This document shows, in pieces, positions 4,152 to 11,562 of a DNA stretch of 38,318 nt. The notes under the pieces are model-generated. The model did not search any database, had not been told where the DNA came from, and saw nothing but the letters and a program-made list of their open reading frames with translations. Each line of letters opens with the position of its first letter. Positions within the stretch are counted from its first letter, which is position 1. Made by a program: the position numbers and the translations under genes. The stretch lies in assembly GCF_025629245.1 (NCBI RefSeq), contig NZ_JANZXN010000031.1:36894-75211 (forward strand). Direction: 5' to 3'. This DNA is from Natronobiforma cellulositropha. Lineage in GTDB: Archaea; Halobacteriota; Halobacteria; Halobacteriales; Natrialbaceae.

Positions 4152-7100
4152 TCAGGTCCCGTCTGCGACCTCGATAGACCGCCGCGCGTCGACGACGACG
4201 CCGTCGCCGTCGAAGACGAGACCGACGACGACGAACTCCTCGCCGAGTCCGTAGTCGGGATCTAGGGTGATCGTTCCCGACCCGCTCGTGGTCGTGGTGC
4301 GGTCGATGTGGGCGAAGTCACCACCGATGGCGAGCACCTCGAGTTCGGTGAAGTCGCCCGTCGAGGAGAGGGCGTAGCTGATCTCGAACGAGGGCGATCC
4401 GTCGCTCGTATCCTCGACCTCCCAGGTGGTGAGTTCGGGACTCGTTCCGGTGTCGAGGTCGTCGTTTCCGGCGGGGTTCTCCGCGTCGGCCGTGTCGCTG
4501 ATGGTGCGACTCGCGGCGACGAACTCGCCGCCGTTCGGGTCGTCGGCGATCACGTCGATGGTGATCTCGAACTCGTGGCCGAAGCCGTAGTGGTTCTCGT
4601 AGCGGACGTGCCCGCGTGGGTCGCTGCTGTCGATCGTCTGGCTGCCCGCGGGTTCGTCGAGGTTCTCGAACCTGACGCTGACGTGGGAGAACGAGGCGTC
4701 GACGTTGCCGACCTCGTAGGAGACGACGTACTCGGGGTCGTCTAAGTCCTCGTGTGAGAGGTCGTCGACGCGCGTGCTGAGTGTCACCCCATCACCGACC
4801 TCGATGGGGGCCGTCGCGCCGTCGTCGTCGCTGTAGATGCCGTGTTCGTAGGTGCCGTCAGCGGCGTCGACCGTGTGGGTGAACGAGACGCTCTCGCTCT
4901 CCTCGGGGGCGAGCGTCACGGTGGTCGTGTTCTCGACGACGCCGTCGAACTCGTAGGCGAGTGTCTGGGTGTCGGCTTCGGTGCCCGTGTTCTCGACGGT
5001 CGCCGTGACGGTGATCGTCTCGCCGTCGTCGGCCGAGTCGGGGGCGTCGAAGTCCGACACCTCGAAGAACGGCGTCTCGGGTGCTGGCGTTGCGCTGAGG
5101 TCGACCCGTGAGACGACCGGCGTCCGGGTGGGGTCTGTCGTCTCGAGTTCGAGGCGGAGGCGGAAGCTGTCGGTGTCCTGGCTCAGCCCCTCCACGGCGT
5201 AGGTCTCGTCGCTCGTGAGTTCGACCTCCTCGCTCACCTCGTTGACCTCGCCGTCGCCGGTGGTGTCGGTCTCGACGGTGACGGTGACGCTGCCGCCGTC
5301 GAGCGCCGCCGAGACGTTCTCGAGTGCGAGGTCCTCGACCGCGAGGTCGTCGCTCGCGGTCTTCCAGCCGGTGGTGTGGGTGCCGCTCGCTGCGGTCCAG
5401 TAGAGGGCGTCGATCTCCGCGCCGGAGAGCGCGCGGTCGTAGAGCTGAATCTCGTCCATGTCGCCCTCGAACGGTCCGTGGCCGGTGTGGCCCGCACCGA
5501 TCGAGAGGTCGACTGCGGCCGGGTCGAGGGCGGTGTTGCTCTCCTGGGCTCTGAGTTCGCCGTCGAGGTAGATCCGGGTGACGTCGCCCTCGCGGACGCC
5601 GACGATGTGGTGCCACTCGCCGTCGGTCACGAGGTCGCGGTCGAACGCGACGTCGGTGTGGTCGCCGTCGCCGTGGACGCGGAAGAACACCTCGTCTGAG
5701 TAGTCGCCGTTGTCGGCGATGAGATAGCCCTCGCGGTTGTCCCAGTGGCTCTTATCGAGCAGGTACGTCTGGTTGTCCTCGTTGTCGCTGACGCCGAGTT
5801 CGTCCGCCCTGATCCACATCGAGACGGTCATGTCGCTCGCAAAGCGGTGCGCCTCGTCGTCTGCGACGTTCACCCGCGCGTCGATGCCGTCGAAGCCGTA
5901 GGCGCTCGAGCCGACGAGTCCCGTCTGGCCGAGCGCCGGGCCGTTGACGTGGTCGCCGTCGAAGCCGCCTGCGGCGTCGATCGCCGTGGTTCCACTCGCT
6001 TCGTCGAACGGCCAGTAGGAGACGAGACCGTCGGTCGTCGCCTCGTAGCCGAGTCTGACGGTGTCTCCCTCCCTGTCACCCACGCCGTCGCTGACGGTTC
6101 GTTCGTGGGTGCCCGCGCTCCAGTCGGTGTCGGTGCTCCAGACCAGCGACTCGGGATCGACGCTGCTGACCGTAATTTCGGCGGTATCGGCGTCGTCGTC
6201 GCTGTAGATGCCGTGTTCGTAGGTGCCGTCGTCGGCGTCGACGGTGTGGGTGAACGAGACGCTCTCGTTCGCTCCGGGGGCGAGCGTCACCTCGGCCGTC
6301 TCCTCGACGACGCCGTCGAAACGGTAGGCGACGGTCTGGGTCGCCGTCTGGCCACCGGTGTTCTCGACGGTCGCCGTGACGGTGATCTCCTCGCCATCGT
6401 TCGCCGAGGCGGGTGCGTCGAACGCCGTGACCTGGAAGGCGGCCGCCTCGGCGTGCGTGCCGGTGAGTCCGATCTGGGAGACGACGGGCGTGCTGACAAC
6501 GTCTGCGGTCTCGAAGTCCATCACGAGACGGAAGCGCGAGGCGTTCTCGGTGAGTCCCTCGACGTCGTAGCTGTCGTCTTCGGTGAGTTCGATCGGATCG
6601 CTCACCTCGTCGACCTCGCCGTCGCCGGTGGTGTCGGTCTCGACGGTGACGGTGACGCTGCCGCCGTCGAGTATCGCCGAGACGTTCTCGAGGGTGAGGC
6701 TGTCGGCGGCGAGCGCGTCGTCGGTCTCCAGCCAGCCCGAGGTGTAGGTGCCGTTGCTCCCGGTCTGGTGGAGGGCGTCGACCTCGGCGGGACTCAGCGC
6801 GCGGTCGTAGATCTGAATCTCGTCCATCCCACCCTCGAGCGGGCCGTGGCCGGTGTGGCCCGCACCGATCGCGAGGTCGACGAAGGAGGCGTCGAGTGCG
6901 GTATCACTCGCCTGACCTTGCAGGGTGCCGTCGAGGTAGAGCAGGATGTCTCCCCCGTCGCGGACGGCGACGATGTTGTGCCACTCGCCGTCGTTGACGA
7001 GCGTCCGGTCGAACGCGATGTCGGTGTGGTCGCCGTTGCCGAGGACGCGGAAGAACACCTCGTCGGCGTAGTCACCGTCGTCGGCGACGAGGTACCCTTC

Positions 7101-7991
7101 TCTGTTGTCCCAGTGGCTCTTATCGAGCAGGAACGTCTGGTTGCTGTCTGCGGCACTCTCCCCGAGCGTCGTCGTGTTGATCCACATCGAGATGGCCATG
7201 TCGCCGGTCAGCCGTAACGCCTCGTCGTCGGAAACGTCGACGCGGCCGTCGACGCCGTCGAAGCCGTAGGCGGTCGAACTGAGCAGTCCCTCCCGGCCGG
7301 GGGTCACGCCGCCAACGTGGCTCCCGTCGTTCGCCCCTGCGGCGTCGAAGGCGGTGTCGCCGTCGTCCTCGTCGAACGGCCAGTAGGCGACGAGACCGTC
7401 GACCTCGGCGTCGTAGCCCAGTCTGACCGTGTCCGACTCCCGGTCACCGGTGTCGTCGCTCACGGTTCGCTCGTGTGTCCCCATCTCCCAGTCGCTCGAC
7501 GTACTCCAGAGCACCGAGGAGGTCTCCGGCTCCGGCTCGGGTTCGTCCTCGCCGACGGCGAACTCGAGGACGTCCACCGCGCCGTGGATGCGCACCATCG
7601 CGCGGTGGTCGCCGTCTGCGAGCGCCCCGTCGACCGTCACCTCGAGGACGCGCCCGGTGCGCCAGTAGTCGTCGCCGAGCACCGTCGCCGACGCTGGCTC
7701 GACGTAGCTCCCGTCGAGTAAGACGTCGAGGTCGTCCGCCTCGAGCGTCGAACCGCCGACGTTCTTGACGTAGAGCGTCGTCGTCTCGCTCCCCTGGTCG
7801 TAGGTTCCACTCGCTTCGGGATCGTTCACCAGGAGGATGTCGGCGTCGATTTCGGCGACGATGCGGTCGCTCTCGCGTTCGACCGACCCGGCGTAGTGGC
7901 CGACTTCACTCGTCAGCGAGCCGACGAACAGCATCGTCGCACTGACGACCGCGATGAACAAAATGAGGTGTGTCACCGACGTTCGTGCCAT
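4152..7991 (-). CDS. Large surface protein: ArlG/FlaG-like N-terminus plus two LamG-CARDB modules
   Basis: The 1279-residue product has a single N-terminal hydrophobic helix (residues 7-26, THLILFIAVVSATMLFVGSL). A beta domain follows (about 45-146) with the pattern TTLYVKNVGGSTLEADDLD, WRTGRVLEVTV and DGDHRAMVRIHG. These are hallmarks of haloarchaeal ArlG/FlaG, the archaellum stator protein that spans the space below the S-layer. After a (PE)n spacer come two 456-residue modules (about 158-613 and 614-1069). Each has a LamG/concanavalin-like domain (YWPFDE, GFDG, WHNIV or WHHIV, GGMDEIQIYDRALS or a close variant) and a CARDB-type Ig domain (ITVTATVENTG). The C-terminal 210 residues are two further beta domains. 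There is no C-terminal anchor, so the N-terminal helix is the likely membrane tether. No arl genes lie nearby. Function is inferred as cell-surface binding. Confidence 0.85.
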   Translation of the reverse strand: MARTSVTHLILFIAVVSATMLFVGSLTSEVGHYAGSVERESDRIVAEIDADILLVNDPEASGTYDQGSETTTLYVKNVGGSTLEADDLDVLLDGSYVEPASATVLGDDYWRTGRVLEVTVDGALADGDHRAMVRIHGAVDVLEFAVGEDEPEPEPETSSVLWSTSSDWEMGTHERTVSDDTGDRESDTVRLGYDAEVDGLVAYWPFDEDDGDTAFDAAGANDGSHVGGVTPGREGLLSSTAYGFDGVDGRVDVSDDEALRLTGDMAISMWINTTTLGESAADSNQTFLLDKSHWDNREGYLVADDGDYADEVFFRVLGNGDHTDIAFDRTLVNDGEWHNIVAVRDGGDILLYLDGTLQGQASDTALDASFVDLAIGAGHTGHGPLEGGMDEIQIYDRALSPAEVDALHQTGSNGTYTSGWLETDDALAADSLTLENVSAILDGGSVTVTVETDTTGDGEVDEVSDPIELTEDDSYDVEGLTENASRFRLVMDFETADVVSTPVVSQIGLTGTHAEAAAFQVTAFDAPASANDGEEITVTATVENTGGQTATQTVAYRFDGVVEETAEVTLAPGANESVSFTHTVDADDGTYEHGIYSDDDADTAEITVSSVDPESLVWSTDTDWSAGTHERTVSDGVGDREGDTVRLGYEATTDGLVSYWPFDEASGTTAIDAAGGFDGDHVNGPALGQTGLVGSSAYGFDGIDARVNVADDEAHRFASDMTVSMWIRADELGVSDNEDNQTYLLDKSHWDNREGYLIADNGDYSDEVFFRVHGDGDHTDVAFDRDLVTDGEWHHIVGVREGDVTRIYLDGELRAQESNTALDPAAVDLSIGAGHTGHGPFEGDMDEIQLYDRALSGAEIDALYWTAASGTHTTGWKTASDDLAVEDLALENVSAALDGGSVTVTVETDTTGDGEVNEVSEEVELTSDETYAVEGLSQDTDSFRLRLELETTDPTRTPVVSRVDLSATPAPETPFFEVSDFDAPDSADDGETITVTATVENTGTEADTQTLAYEFDGVVENTTTVTLAPEESESVSFTHTVDAADGTYEHGIYSDDDGATAPIEVGDGVTLSTRVDDLSHEDLDDPEYVVSYEVGNVDASFSHVSVRFENLDEPAGSQTIDSSDPRGHVRYENHYGFGHEFEITIDVIADDPNGGEFVAASRTISDTADAENPAGNDDLDTGTSPELTTWEVEDTSDGSPSFEISYALSSTGDFTELEVLAIGGDFAHIDRTTTTSGSGTITLDPDYGLGEEFVVVGLVFDGDGVVVDARRSIEVADGT
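4785..7520 (-). repeat. Two 1368-bp direct repeats inside the surface-protein gene
   Basis: The two LamG-CARDB modules are also repeats at DNA level. For example CCCAGTGGCTCTTATCGAGC occurs at 5741 and again at 7109, exactly 1368 bases (456 codons) apart, with long nearly identical flanks. The approximate units are 6153-7520 (first module in the protein) and 4785-6152 (second). High nucleotide identity indicates a fairly recent duplication or ongoing gene conversion. Confidence 0.8.
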
Positions 7992-8079: not shown

Positions 8080-9369
8080 TCAGCGCTCGAGGACGTCGAC
8101 GAACCGGACTTCGACGTCGACCGGCTCGCTCGCCTGGGCGTTGATCCGCTCGCTCAACAGTTCGACCAGTCCGGGATACGCTTCGCCGGGCGGGCCACCG
8201 ACCGTGACCACCACCCGGTCCGGCCCGCGGAACGGATACTCGTCGTCGAGGACGACCTCGAGTTCGAGCAGCTGGACGGCCGGGTACGACGACTCGAGCG
8301 CCGCCGTCACCGCCTCGTTCGCCTCCTGTTCGAACGTCGCCGCCTGGTAGGAGTTGTACGTGATCGCTCCGAGGAACAGCGAGAAGACGAGCACCACGAC
8401 GACGAGGACGCTCACCTGTCGGCGAACCCGCGCCTGCGTCGGCTCGAGGTCGAAGAAGCTCTCGGGACGGTAGCCCGCGTACCACAGCGTCAGGAGACCG
8501 GCGAGGTTCACCGAGAGGACGTTGACGAACACGAGGACGGTCGAGCCGATGGCCGCGGCCGGTTCGCCGAAGGCGATGGCGATACCGGCAGCGGCGGCGG
8601 GTGGGATCAACGCGGCGGCGATCATCACGCCGACGAGGGCGACCGACGCGCCCGTCGAGATGCTCAGGATACCGGCGACGCCAGCCCCGAGTGCGATCAC
8701 CAGCGAGAGCAGGTCGGGCGCGAGGCGTTCTTCGATCTCGCCGATCGACGCGATGTTCAGCCCCGGCGGGACGACGTTGAGTACGCGGACCGACCACGCG
8801 AACGCGGCCGCAGAGCCGATGGCGAGAGCGACGCCGAGAAACTGGTACTTCGCGCCAGTGACCAGCAGTTCTCGCTCGTTGAGGACCGTACCGATACCCA
8901 CCCCGAGTGCGGGACCGATCAGTGGGGCGATCACCATCGAGCCGACGACGACCGCCGGCGAGTCGAGTAAGAGTCCCGCGGTCGCGACCAGCGCGCTGAC
9001 CACCGTCAGGATCACGTAGATACTGAACGTCGGCGTCAGCGCCTCCGCCTGGGAGACGAGTTCCTGTCTCGAGATCCGGTCCTCGTCGACGTCGCCGTTC
9101 TCGTACTCCTCGCTCAACGCGTCGAACTTCCTGGAGACGACCGTCTCGGCGTCGACGACGACCGTGTAGGCGTCCTCTTCGACGCCCTGGTCTTTGAGCG
9201 AGTCGAGCACCGGCTCGACGGCCGCCGTCGGAAGCGGGAAGTAGACGACGGCGTCGTAGCCGCGCCCGCCGGTCTCGTTGGTCACGACGTAATCGACTCC
9301 CTTCGACTCGAGCGTCTCGAGGATCCGCTCACGCGCTCCCGCCGGAATCGTTAGCTGAACGAGACGCAC
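8080..9369 (-). CDS. TIGR00341/DUF389 family membrane protein
   Basis: The 429-residue protein has a soluble N-terminal domain (about 1-115) that begins with alpha/beta sequence MRLVQLTIPAGARERIL. A DUF389 membrane core follows with six or so helices, including the conserved GSMVIAPLIGPALGVGIG and the run AALIPPAAAAGIA. A C-terminal extracytoplasmic domain of about 85 residues closes the protein (EVVLDDEYPFRGPDRVVVTV). It matches the TIGR00341 conserved hypothetical family, common in haloarchaea, whose role is unknown (transport or stress has been guessed). The start is a GTG, supported by AGTTATT on the minus strand at 9394-9400, about 27 bases upstream. Confidence 0.88.
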   Translation of the reverse strand: MRLVQLTIPAGARERILETLESKGVDYVVTNETGGRGYDAVVYFPLPTAAVEPVLDSLKDQGVEEDAYTVVVDAETVVSRKFDALSEEYENGDVDEDRISRQELVSQAEALTPTFSIYVILTVVSALVATAGLLLDSPAVVVGSMVIAPLIGPALGVGIGTVLNERELLVTGAKYQFLGVALAIGSAAAFAWSVRVLNVVPPGLNIASIGEIEERLAPDLLSLVIALGAGVAGILSISTGASVALVGVMIAAALIPPAAAAGIAIAFGEPAAAIGSTVLVFVNVLSVNLAGLLTLWYAGYRPESFFDLEPTQARVRRQVSVLVVVVLVFSLFLGAITYNSYQAATFEQEANEAVTAALESSYPAVQLLELEVVLDDEYPFRGPDRVVVTVGGPPGEAYPGLVELLSERINAQASEPVDVEVRFVDVLER

Positions 9370-9511: not shown

Positions 9512-9892
9512 TCAGCTCGTCTCGGCGACGACCAGCGTCACCCGCTCGTCGCTCTCGACGGTCAGGTCGGTCTCGACTGGCTCGAACGCCCGGTCACCGG
9601 CCGGTTCCACGCTGAGGAGGTACTCGCCGGCGACACCCTCGTGACGGACCGTCCCGTCGTCGATGTCCGACTCGTGGTACTCCGTGGTGAGCCGCTCCGC
9701 CTCGACGGTGACGAGGACGATCACACCGGCCGAGATCGGCGTCCCGTCCTCGCGCTCGAGCGATATCGTGAGCGTGTACAGCGGTTCGTCGACGACGCTC
9801 GTCTCACCGCTCTGGCTACACCCCGCGAGCGGGAGGACGAGCGCGGCCGACAGCCACGACCCGACCCGGCGACGCGAGAGGGGGCGCTCCAT
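9512..9892 (-). CDS. Small lipoprotein with transthyretin-like/Ig beta domain
   Basis: Starting at the ATG at 9892, the 126-residue protein has an Arg-rich N-terminus (MERPLSRRR), a hydrophobic segment and a lipobox LAGC with Cys25 as the lipidation site. The two arginines before the hydrophobic run fit Tat export, common for haloarchaeal lipoproteins. The mature part is an all-beta domain (YTLTISLEREDGTPISAGVIV and later GTVRHEGVAGEYLLSVE) resembling carboxypeptidase-regulatory or transthyretin-like folds. A start nine codons upstream is possible but weakens the signal peptide. The substrate or partner is unknown. Confidence 0.72.
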   Translation of the reverse strand: MERPLSRRRVGSWLSAALVLPLAGCSQSGETSVVDEPLYTLTISLEREDGTPISAGVIVLVTVEAERLTTEYHESDIDDGTVRHEGVAGEYLLSVEPAGDRAFEPVETDLTVESDERVTLVVAETS

Positions 9893-9967
9893 GCCGATGA
9901 TTCGACGGACATTCGACAAGAATCTATCGAAGTTCCGACCTGACCCGCGAGCGCCTCCCTCGCGAGC

Positions 9968-9974
9968 CTTATTA
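9968..9974 (+). promoter_or_regulatory. TATA-like box of engB
   Basis: CTTATTA is centred 26 bases before the ATG at 9997, in a GC-rich context. This is the expected layout for a leaderless haloarchaeal transcript. Confidence 0.55.
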
Positions 9975-9996
9975 CCCGGGCGTTCCCACCTCGAGT

Positions 9997-10614
9997 ATGT
10001 TCGACACTCGCCCGGAGCGGAGCGCGGAAGTCGTCCTCGTCGGCCGCTCGAACGTCGGAAAGTCGACGCTCATGCGCGAGCTGACCGGCCACCGTGTCGA
10101 CACCGGCGGCAAGCCCGGCGTCACCCGCAAGCCGAACCACTACGACTGGGTCTCCGAGGACTTCGTCATCACCGACCTCCCCGGCTTCGGCTTCATGAGC
10201 GGCGTCCCCAGTGAGTACCGCGAGCAGATCAAGACCGACGTCGTCCGCTACCTCGAGGAGTACGCCGACGCCATCCTCGTCGCGGTGCTCGTCGTCGACG
10301 GCAAGAGCGTCGTCGACATCATCGACCGCCACTCGAGCGACGAGGAGATTCCCTACGACGTCGAGATGTTCTACTTCCTCCAGGACCTCGAGATACCGAC
10401 GGTCGTCGCCGTCAACAAGATGGACAAGGTGAGCGACCGCGACGAGCGCCTCGACGACCTCTGTGACCGTCTGGGTCTCGTCCCGCCGTGGCAGCAGTGG
10501 CGCGACACGGTCGCCCCCATCACCGCCAAACGCGGCGAGATCGACCCGCTCACCGAGGCGGTCAGAACCCACCTCCACGACCACCGCCGCGACGACCTCT
10601 TCAAGTTCTTCTGA
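9997..10614 (+). CDS. engB: EngB-type GTP-binding protein
   Basis: The 205-residue TRAFAC GTPase has G1 GRSNVGKST (about residues 16-24), G2 region [11 protein letters not shown]3 DLPGFGF and G4 NKMDK. A short C-terminal basic/aromatic tail follows (RRDDLFKFF). The GKPGxTR pattern and DLPGFG are specific to the EngB/YihA group, which assists large-subunit ribosome assembly in bacteria and is presumed to act similarly in archaea. The length is as usual. It is convergent with the dehydrogenase gene, with nine bases between the stop codons. Confidence 0.92.
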
Positions 10615-10623
10615 GACCCCCGC

Positions 10624-11562
10624 TCAGACGACCCGGTTCTCGAGCGCCTCACCCGCCGCGGCCCGCTCGAGGTTGTCGGTGACGAGCCCGGCGATATCCC
10701 GATAGTAGTCGCGGGTGAACGCCGCACAGTGGGGCGTGACGATCACGTTTTCGGCGTCCCACAGCGGCGAGTCGGCCGGGAGCGGTTCGGTCTCGAAGAC
10801 GTCGAGCGCCGCCCCGGCGATGGCCCCCGACTCGAGCGCCTCGACCAGTGCCGGTTCGTCGACGACCCCGCCGCGTGCGACGTTGACGAAGTAGCTCTCC
10901 GCATCCATCGCGGCGAACACCGCGGCGTCGAACAACCCCTCGGTTTCGGCGGTCAGCGGCACCGTGGCGATGACGAACTCGACGCCGCCCACTGCCTCGA
11001 GCAGCGCCTCGTTTGGATGGACGTCCTCGAAGCCGGGCACCGCCTCCCCGGAGCGTCGGACGCCGATCACCTCGACGCCGAGCGCGCCGAGTACGTCGGC
11101 GACGCCCCGCCCGAGTGTGCCGGTGCCGACGACGCAGGCGGCCGTCCCCGGGAGCGTGAACGCCTCGTCCCAGGCGGGCTGGTCCCACTCGCGCGCACAC
11201 TGGTTCGCCGCGTGGTCGTGGAGTCGCCGCGAGAACGCGAGCAGGTAGCCCGCGACCGTCTCGCCGACGGTCCGGCCGTGGATGCCCGTGCTGTTGGTCA
11301 GGACGACGCCTGCCTCGGCGAGACGCTCGAGCGGAAACCGGTCGACACCCGCCTGGATCGAGTGGACCCACGCGAGGTCACAGAACGCCTCGCGGTACTC
11401 GAGGGTGACGACCGCGTCACAGTCTCCGATGCCGTCGTCGCCGACGACCGCCACGTCGAGGTCGGCTGGGTCGTCCGCGAGCGCCTGTTCGAGTCGTTCC
11501 GCCGGAAACACCGCGTCGACCGACTCGTGGACGCCGAGCCGTGAGAGCCGTCTCGAGAGCAT
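10624..11562 (-). CDS. D-2-hydroxyacid dehydrogenase (NAD-dependent)
   Basis: From the ATG at 11562 the protein has 312 residues, the usual family length. The Rossmann motif is VGTGTLGRGVADVLG. The catalytic Arg is in NVARGGVVDE, the Glu in FETEPLP and the His in TPHCAAFT. The substrate-side loop GIHGRTVGETV is characteristic of the haloarchaeal branch. These enzymes reduce 2-ketoacids to D-2-hydroxyacids or the reverse; the exact substrate cannot be read from sequence. An upstream in-frame extension of 48 codons is Cys/Arg-rich and unlike the rest, so it is rejected. No operon partner is evident. Confidence 0.87.
   Translation of the reverse strand: MLSRRLSRLGVHESVDAVFPAERLEQALADDPADLDVAVVGDDGIGDCDAVVTLEYREAFCDLAWVHSIQAGVDRFPLERLAEAGVVLTNSTGIHGRTVGETVAGYLLAFSRRLHDHAANQCAREWDQPAWDEAFTLPGTAACVVGTGTLGRGVADVLGALGVEVIGVRRSGEAVPGFEDVHPNEALLEAVGGVEFVIATVPLTAETEGLFDAAVFAAMDAESYFVNVARGGVVDEPALVEALESGAIAGAALDVFETEPLPADSPLWDAENVIVTPHCAAFTRDYYRDIAGLVTDNLERAAAGEALENRVV

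Follow-up and report, generated by a model that had tools for sequence, protein, structure and literature searches.

We analysed a 38,318-nucleotide stretch of the haloarchaeon Natronobiforma cellulositropha (the window), in which an ArlG-like domain is fused to a long LamG-CARDB surface region. The gene, termed arlG2 here, lies between genes for two membrane proteins (Table 1).

Table 1. Features of the arlG2 locus (window coordinates).
Feature	Coordinates	Strand	Basis and remarks
Small membrane protein, 87 aa	3828..4091	-	Downstream; weak DUF7533 similarity, below cut-off
arlG2-LamG-CARDB fusion gene	4152..7991	-	ATG start, single open frame, 1279 aa
C-terminal region, residues 1062-1279 (~220 aa), mostly past CARDB	4152..4808	-	Pfam, sequence scan
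Repeat unit 2: LamG 702-860 + CARDB ~977-1061	4809..6149	-	Pfam, internal duplication
Repeat unit 1: LamG ~246-404 + CARDB 521-605	6180..7517	-	Pfam, internal duplication
Pro-Glu linker, residues 147-159	7515..7553	-	Sequence; EDEPEPEPE at ~residues 148-156
ArlG-like domain, residues 1-146	7554..7991	-	NF052591, PF01917, AlphaFold model vs 5TUH
N-terminal transmembrane helix, residues ~4-30	7902..7982	-	Hydropathy scan; helix 3-49 in the AlphaFold model
DUF389 / TIGR00341 membrane protein gene	8080..9369	-	Upstream neighbour, co-directional, 88-bp gap

Pfam identifies two Laminin_G_3 (PF13385) and two CARDB (PF07705) domains, which score above the gathering cut-offs at 143.2 and 60.7 bits, respectively. 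A first-pass annotation, made from the letters alone, had described a Pro-Glu spacer leading into a LamG and CARDB region. Both elements are present, and we can add that the region is a tandem duplication (residues ~159-604 and ~615-1061, ~1.35 kb) with 78% DNA identity between the copies. The C-terminal residues 1062-1279 contain two possible short beta domains and match no family with confidence. The N-terminal helix is the sole hydrophobic segment in the hydropathy scan; the whole sequence is free of cysteines, and neither a hydrophobic segment nor an anchor is seen at the C-terminus. A search for the same fusion in relatives found LamG fusions of the same paralogue in three other genomes; the fusion is thus real and not an artefact of assembly or gene calling.

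The LamG-CARDB unit has relatives outside the fusion. The same genome encodes a giant surface protein (L175:7387-15999, on contig C2; frame of 3541 aa) with a beta-helix, a PQQ propeller, five CARDB domains and LamG. Its LamG-CARDB unit is homologous to that of the window protein (48% identity over 451 residues), but the giant protein differs in its beta-helix and PQQ domains, and nothing in it matches ArlG over the 2871 residues read. Distant relatives of the unit at window positions 4731-6155 occur in the haloarchaeal tailed viruses HHTV-1 (gene 36) and HCTV-2 (gene 59), with 26-28% identity, and the same segment matches phrog_18503 with an E-value of 1e-68. The LamG part also resembles positions 128-366 of the TafC family fimbrial protein (NF052521). 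Membership in this family was rejected, as the score of 97.6 bits compares with a cut-off of 410. The TafC model does not include an ArlG domain.

Identity of the N-terminal domain

ArlG is the archaellum stator protein, which normally anchors the swimming motor; it has a membrane helix at its N-terminus, and its other domain is located in the space beneath the S-layer. Residues 1-144 of the window protein match the NCBIfam ArlG model NF052591 with 136.2 bits (E 8e-40; equivalog cut-off 110), while the ArlF profile gives only 40 bits. The Pfam family Arch_flagellin (PF01917), the superfamily of ArlF/FlaF and the archaellins, is matched with 41.3 bits against a gathering cut-off of 29.5. The AlphaFold model of residues 1-149 (11 aligned sequences, pLDDT 75.5) consists of a beta-sandwich preceded by a long helix; a 620-residue model was set aside at a pLDDT of 57.7. 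Foldseek's own ranking placed MHC and dengue Ig-like folds on top, and FlaG surfaced only in a second look with VIA-align, where the best match is Sulfolobus acidocaldarius FlaG/ArlG (5TUH, Z 11.4, 1.9 Å over 87 residues). FlaF (Z 11.1) and archaellins (Z 10.9 and below) follow so closely that the fold by itself cannot single out ArlG. By its fold the domain belongs to the archaellin/ArlF/ArlG superfamily; the sequence profile assigns it to ArlG specifically. Among PDB sequences, a single-sequence phmmer query found no match and a profile query matched archaellins weakly. In the N-terminal sequence (MARTSVTHLILF), judged by eye only for a class III signal peptide with a prepilin peptidase site of the type IV pilin/archaellin kind, the helix begins immediately and a charged leader is not apparent; canonical ArlG is similar in this respect.

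Kinship with ArlG had been proposed in the first-pass annotation from the motifs TLYVKNVG, WRTGRVLEV and DGDHRAMV, all of which are present in the N-terminus. Comparison with ArlG/FlaG by profile and by predicted structure had been named beforehand as the way to refute this kinship; in both comparisons it instead holds up and is confirmed.

The window gene is not the organism's own ArlG. The normal arlFGHIJ cluster of the genome (with archaellin, ArlF, ArlG, ArlH and ArlJ) is located on another contig (C60, the window gene being on C25) and contains a canonical ArlG with a 152-aa frame that scores 185 bits. No arl genes were identified within the window, in agreement with the earlier reading.

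A paralogue clade with exchangeable modules

Searching the N-terminus against 125 genomes of the window's family yielded 29 loci, including the window and one broken copy. They share 44-60% identity with the window, compared with ~45% or less for true ArlG. In a 96-row tree, 28 of the domains, with the window among them, form a single clade (SH-aLRT 99), which we call ArlG2, and the window domain does not group with canonical ArlG as an orthologue. An ArlG2 profile run over 391 genomes of the class gives at least 189 bits for members and at most 138 bits for everything else, and the high scorers are confined to the window's family, the Natrialbaceae. The named records belong to Natronoglomus, Natronosalvus, Natronolimnohabitans, Halovivax, Natrinema and Haloterrigena, all of which established taxonomy places in the Natrialbaceae. 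ArlG2 retains the ArlG core (F12, A14, G24, Y64, N77, G79, W110, R130, F144) and carries fixed positions of its own, such as R3, R43, N56 and V78, where ArlG has S, D, S and T in a comparison set rich in families other than the window's. No relative of the ArlG domain was found in the viral contigs and plasmids searched; the label 'virus-like' does not apply to L074, which sits in an arl cluster. The open-access literature searched contained nothing on ArlG fusions or ArlG2, and nothing on DUF389 in archaea.

Single-domain ArlG comprises ~150 residues, whereas the window protein extends to 1279. Across the clade, the C-terminus is either absent (~150 residues in total), Ig-like (a module of ~100 residues with a weak Pfam match), LamG, the tandem LamG-CARDB of the window, or Ig-like combined with a PQQ propeller. 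Coded as four states on the 28-sequence ArlG2 tree, the C-terminal module requires at least six changes. The absence of any module in seven genes indicates that the head is not essential. The window LamG unit is 46-54% identical to the ArlG2-LamG of three genomes (G344, G142 and G307), so these fusions may have arisen once, the LamG module having been replaced in G391. The original description as a fusion is correct, yet it undersells the gene, which belongs to a family of paralogues that exchange their C-terminal modules and usually lie beside DUF389.

ArlG-like domains are also fused to other modules outside this clade, in at least three further lineages. Proteins combining an ArlG-like domain with an FG-GAP-type propeller form two separate clades in Halobacteriaceae. 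One set is encoded in or near the arl cluster (L117:7114-8427, minus strand; L159:5922-7196, plus strand; L160 ~9728-11000, minus strand), and in L117 and L160 the gene that directly follows the fusion on the same strand encodes an archaellin. These proteins could be variants of the stator that bear a propeller as their head. Halobacterium has a second clade of ArlG-like paralogues (L118:6347-7612, L119:7159-8421, L102/L124, L072, L161 and L162); some of its members are fused to FG-GAP-type repeats, and the stand-alone genes are located near a gene for a CorA Mg transporter (Pfam-confirmed in L124). Within the window's own family, genus g14 combines the ArlG-like domain with Ig-like, carboxypeptidase-regulatory and right-handed beta-helix domains (L120:7045-9084, L121:7324-9138, L122:7101-9215).

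Genomic context and possible roles

A co-directional DUF389 gene is located within 1.5 kb of arlG2 at 24 of the 28 sampled loci and in the window, amounting to 25 of 29 genomes. The order is inverted in three of them (G277, G250 and G174), with arlG2 preceding DUF389, and in two (G344 and G391) arlG2 is flanked by two DUF389 genes. The exceptions are G253 and G046, which have no DUF389 within 1.5 kb, G413, where the contig ends, and G045, in which the gene is broken. DUF389 is present in 124 of the 125 genomes of the family and does not require arlG2, so that the case for a partnership rests on the linkage. On this basis, ArlG2 is probably partnered with the DUF389 protein. At four loci of relatives that do not carry arlG2 (L151, L152, L153 and L157), two DUF389 genes are adjacent or nearly so, the second being ~34-37% identical to the first.

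The first-pass annotation had further suggested that the protein is not tied to the archaellum. Its location outside the arl cluster, its placement in a separate clade and its presence in two archaellum-free genomes support this proposal short of proof: most carriers are archaellated as well. In G277 and G396 (99% complete), arlG2 is intact, while canonical ArlG and an intact ArlJ are absent, the arlJ of G277 being reduced to a 58-residue scrap. The arlG2 of G277 remains under constraint, with a dN/dS of 0.22-0.24, compared with 0.19 between its archaellated relatives. As G277 is close to these relatives (dS 0.14-0.20), the constraint may predate the loss of the archaellum. In G045 (L108 ~6749-7671), arlG2 is interrupted by a stop and frame changes, and arlJ is truncated too. 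Canonical arlG is found in 26 of 29 ArlG2 carriers and in at most 57 of 96 non-carriers in the family (Fisher p 0.003, kinship uncorrected), an enrichment that may reflect a link to motility.

Such a link would fit an accessory stator subunit that joins the ring of true ArlG and grips the S-layer or outside surfaces with its head. The enrichment of archaellated genomes among carriers, the retained ArlG core positions and the different ArlG fusion found directly upstream of an archaellin gene in some Halobacteriaceae are all consistent with this role. It is opposed by the position of arlG2 outside the arl cluster and next to DUF389, by the intact copies in two genomes that lack an archaellum, and by the conserved positions that set ArlG2 apart as a clade of its own. 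We consider a stator role unlikely. About equally doubtful is that ArlG2 primarily serves the DUF389 membrane protein as an accessory subunit, with the variable modules as secondary decoration. The linkage in 25 of 29 genomes survives inversion of the gene order, module-less ArlG2 members also adjoin DUF389, and arlG2 can lie between two DUF389 genes, all of which favour this reading; against it, almost every genome of the family has DUF389 whether or not arlG2 is present, and no DUF389 gene lies within 1.5 kb of arlG2 in G253 and G046.

The broken copy in G045 could be taken as a sign that a decaying arlG copy was fused by chance, and neutrally, to a neighbouring surface-protein gene. The 28 sampled clade genes are intact except for this one, the dN/dS of arlG2 is well under 1, and ArlG fusions have arisen in at least three more lineages. 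Constraint and recurrence together make a chance fusion highly improbable.

We favour, with a probability of roughly 55%, that the window gene is an ArlG paralogue that left the arl cluster and became a membrane-anchored surface-display protein. ArlG2 shares with ArlG/FlaG (NF052591, 5TUH) the N-terminal helix and beta-sandwich, the equivalog-level score and the top structural match. It differs from it in its long, variable C-terminal modules, its linkage to DUF389, its separate clade, its position outside the arl cluster and its retention in two archaellum-free genomes. In vitro, the soluble form of ArlG assembles into open helical filaments, and ArlG has been proposed to contact the S-layer via ArlF (PMC8667602). 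In a surface-display protein, the N-terminal helix of ArlG2 would remain in the cytoplasmic membrane and the beta-sandwich would occupy the space under the S-layer, either alone, stacked as true ArlG can be, or against the DUF389 protein. The LamG and CARDB modules would then extend to or beyond the S-layer. There they may bind a glycan or a protein, acting either as an adhesin or as the external head of the DUF389 membrane protein. A binding module would thereby be held outward on the same kind of membrane anchor and spacer that ArlG has. An adhesin or sensor role for the window protein, as originally suggested, is inferred, as is contact with the S-layer.

More broadly, several lineages may have redeployed the stator domain beyond the motor, as a general-purpose mount on which surface modules can be exchanged, with ArlG2 and the DUF389 membrane protein forming a two-gene surface system in Natrialbaceae. 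We hold this wider view tentatively, at slightly short of even odds. The ArlFG complex has been described as a feature of the archaellar motor alone (PMC8667602). If the wider view is true, the stator fold would have been co-opted for other work in the envelope beyond that motor, and DUF389, a widespread family with no assigned function, would gain a candidate partner on the outside of the cell.
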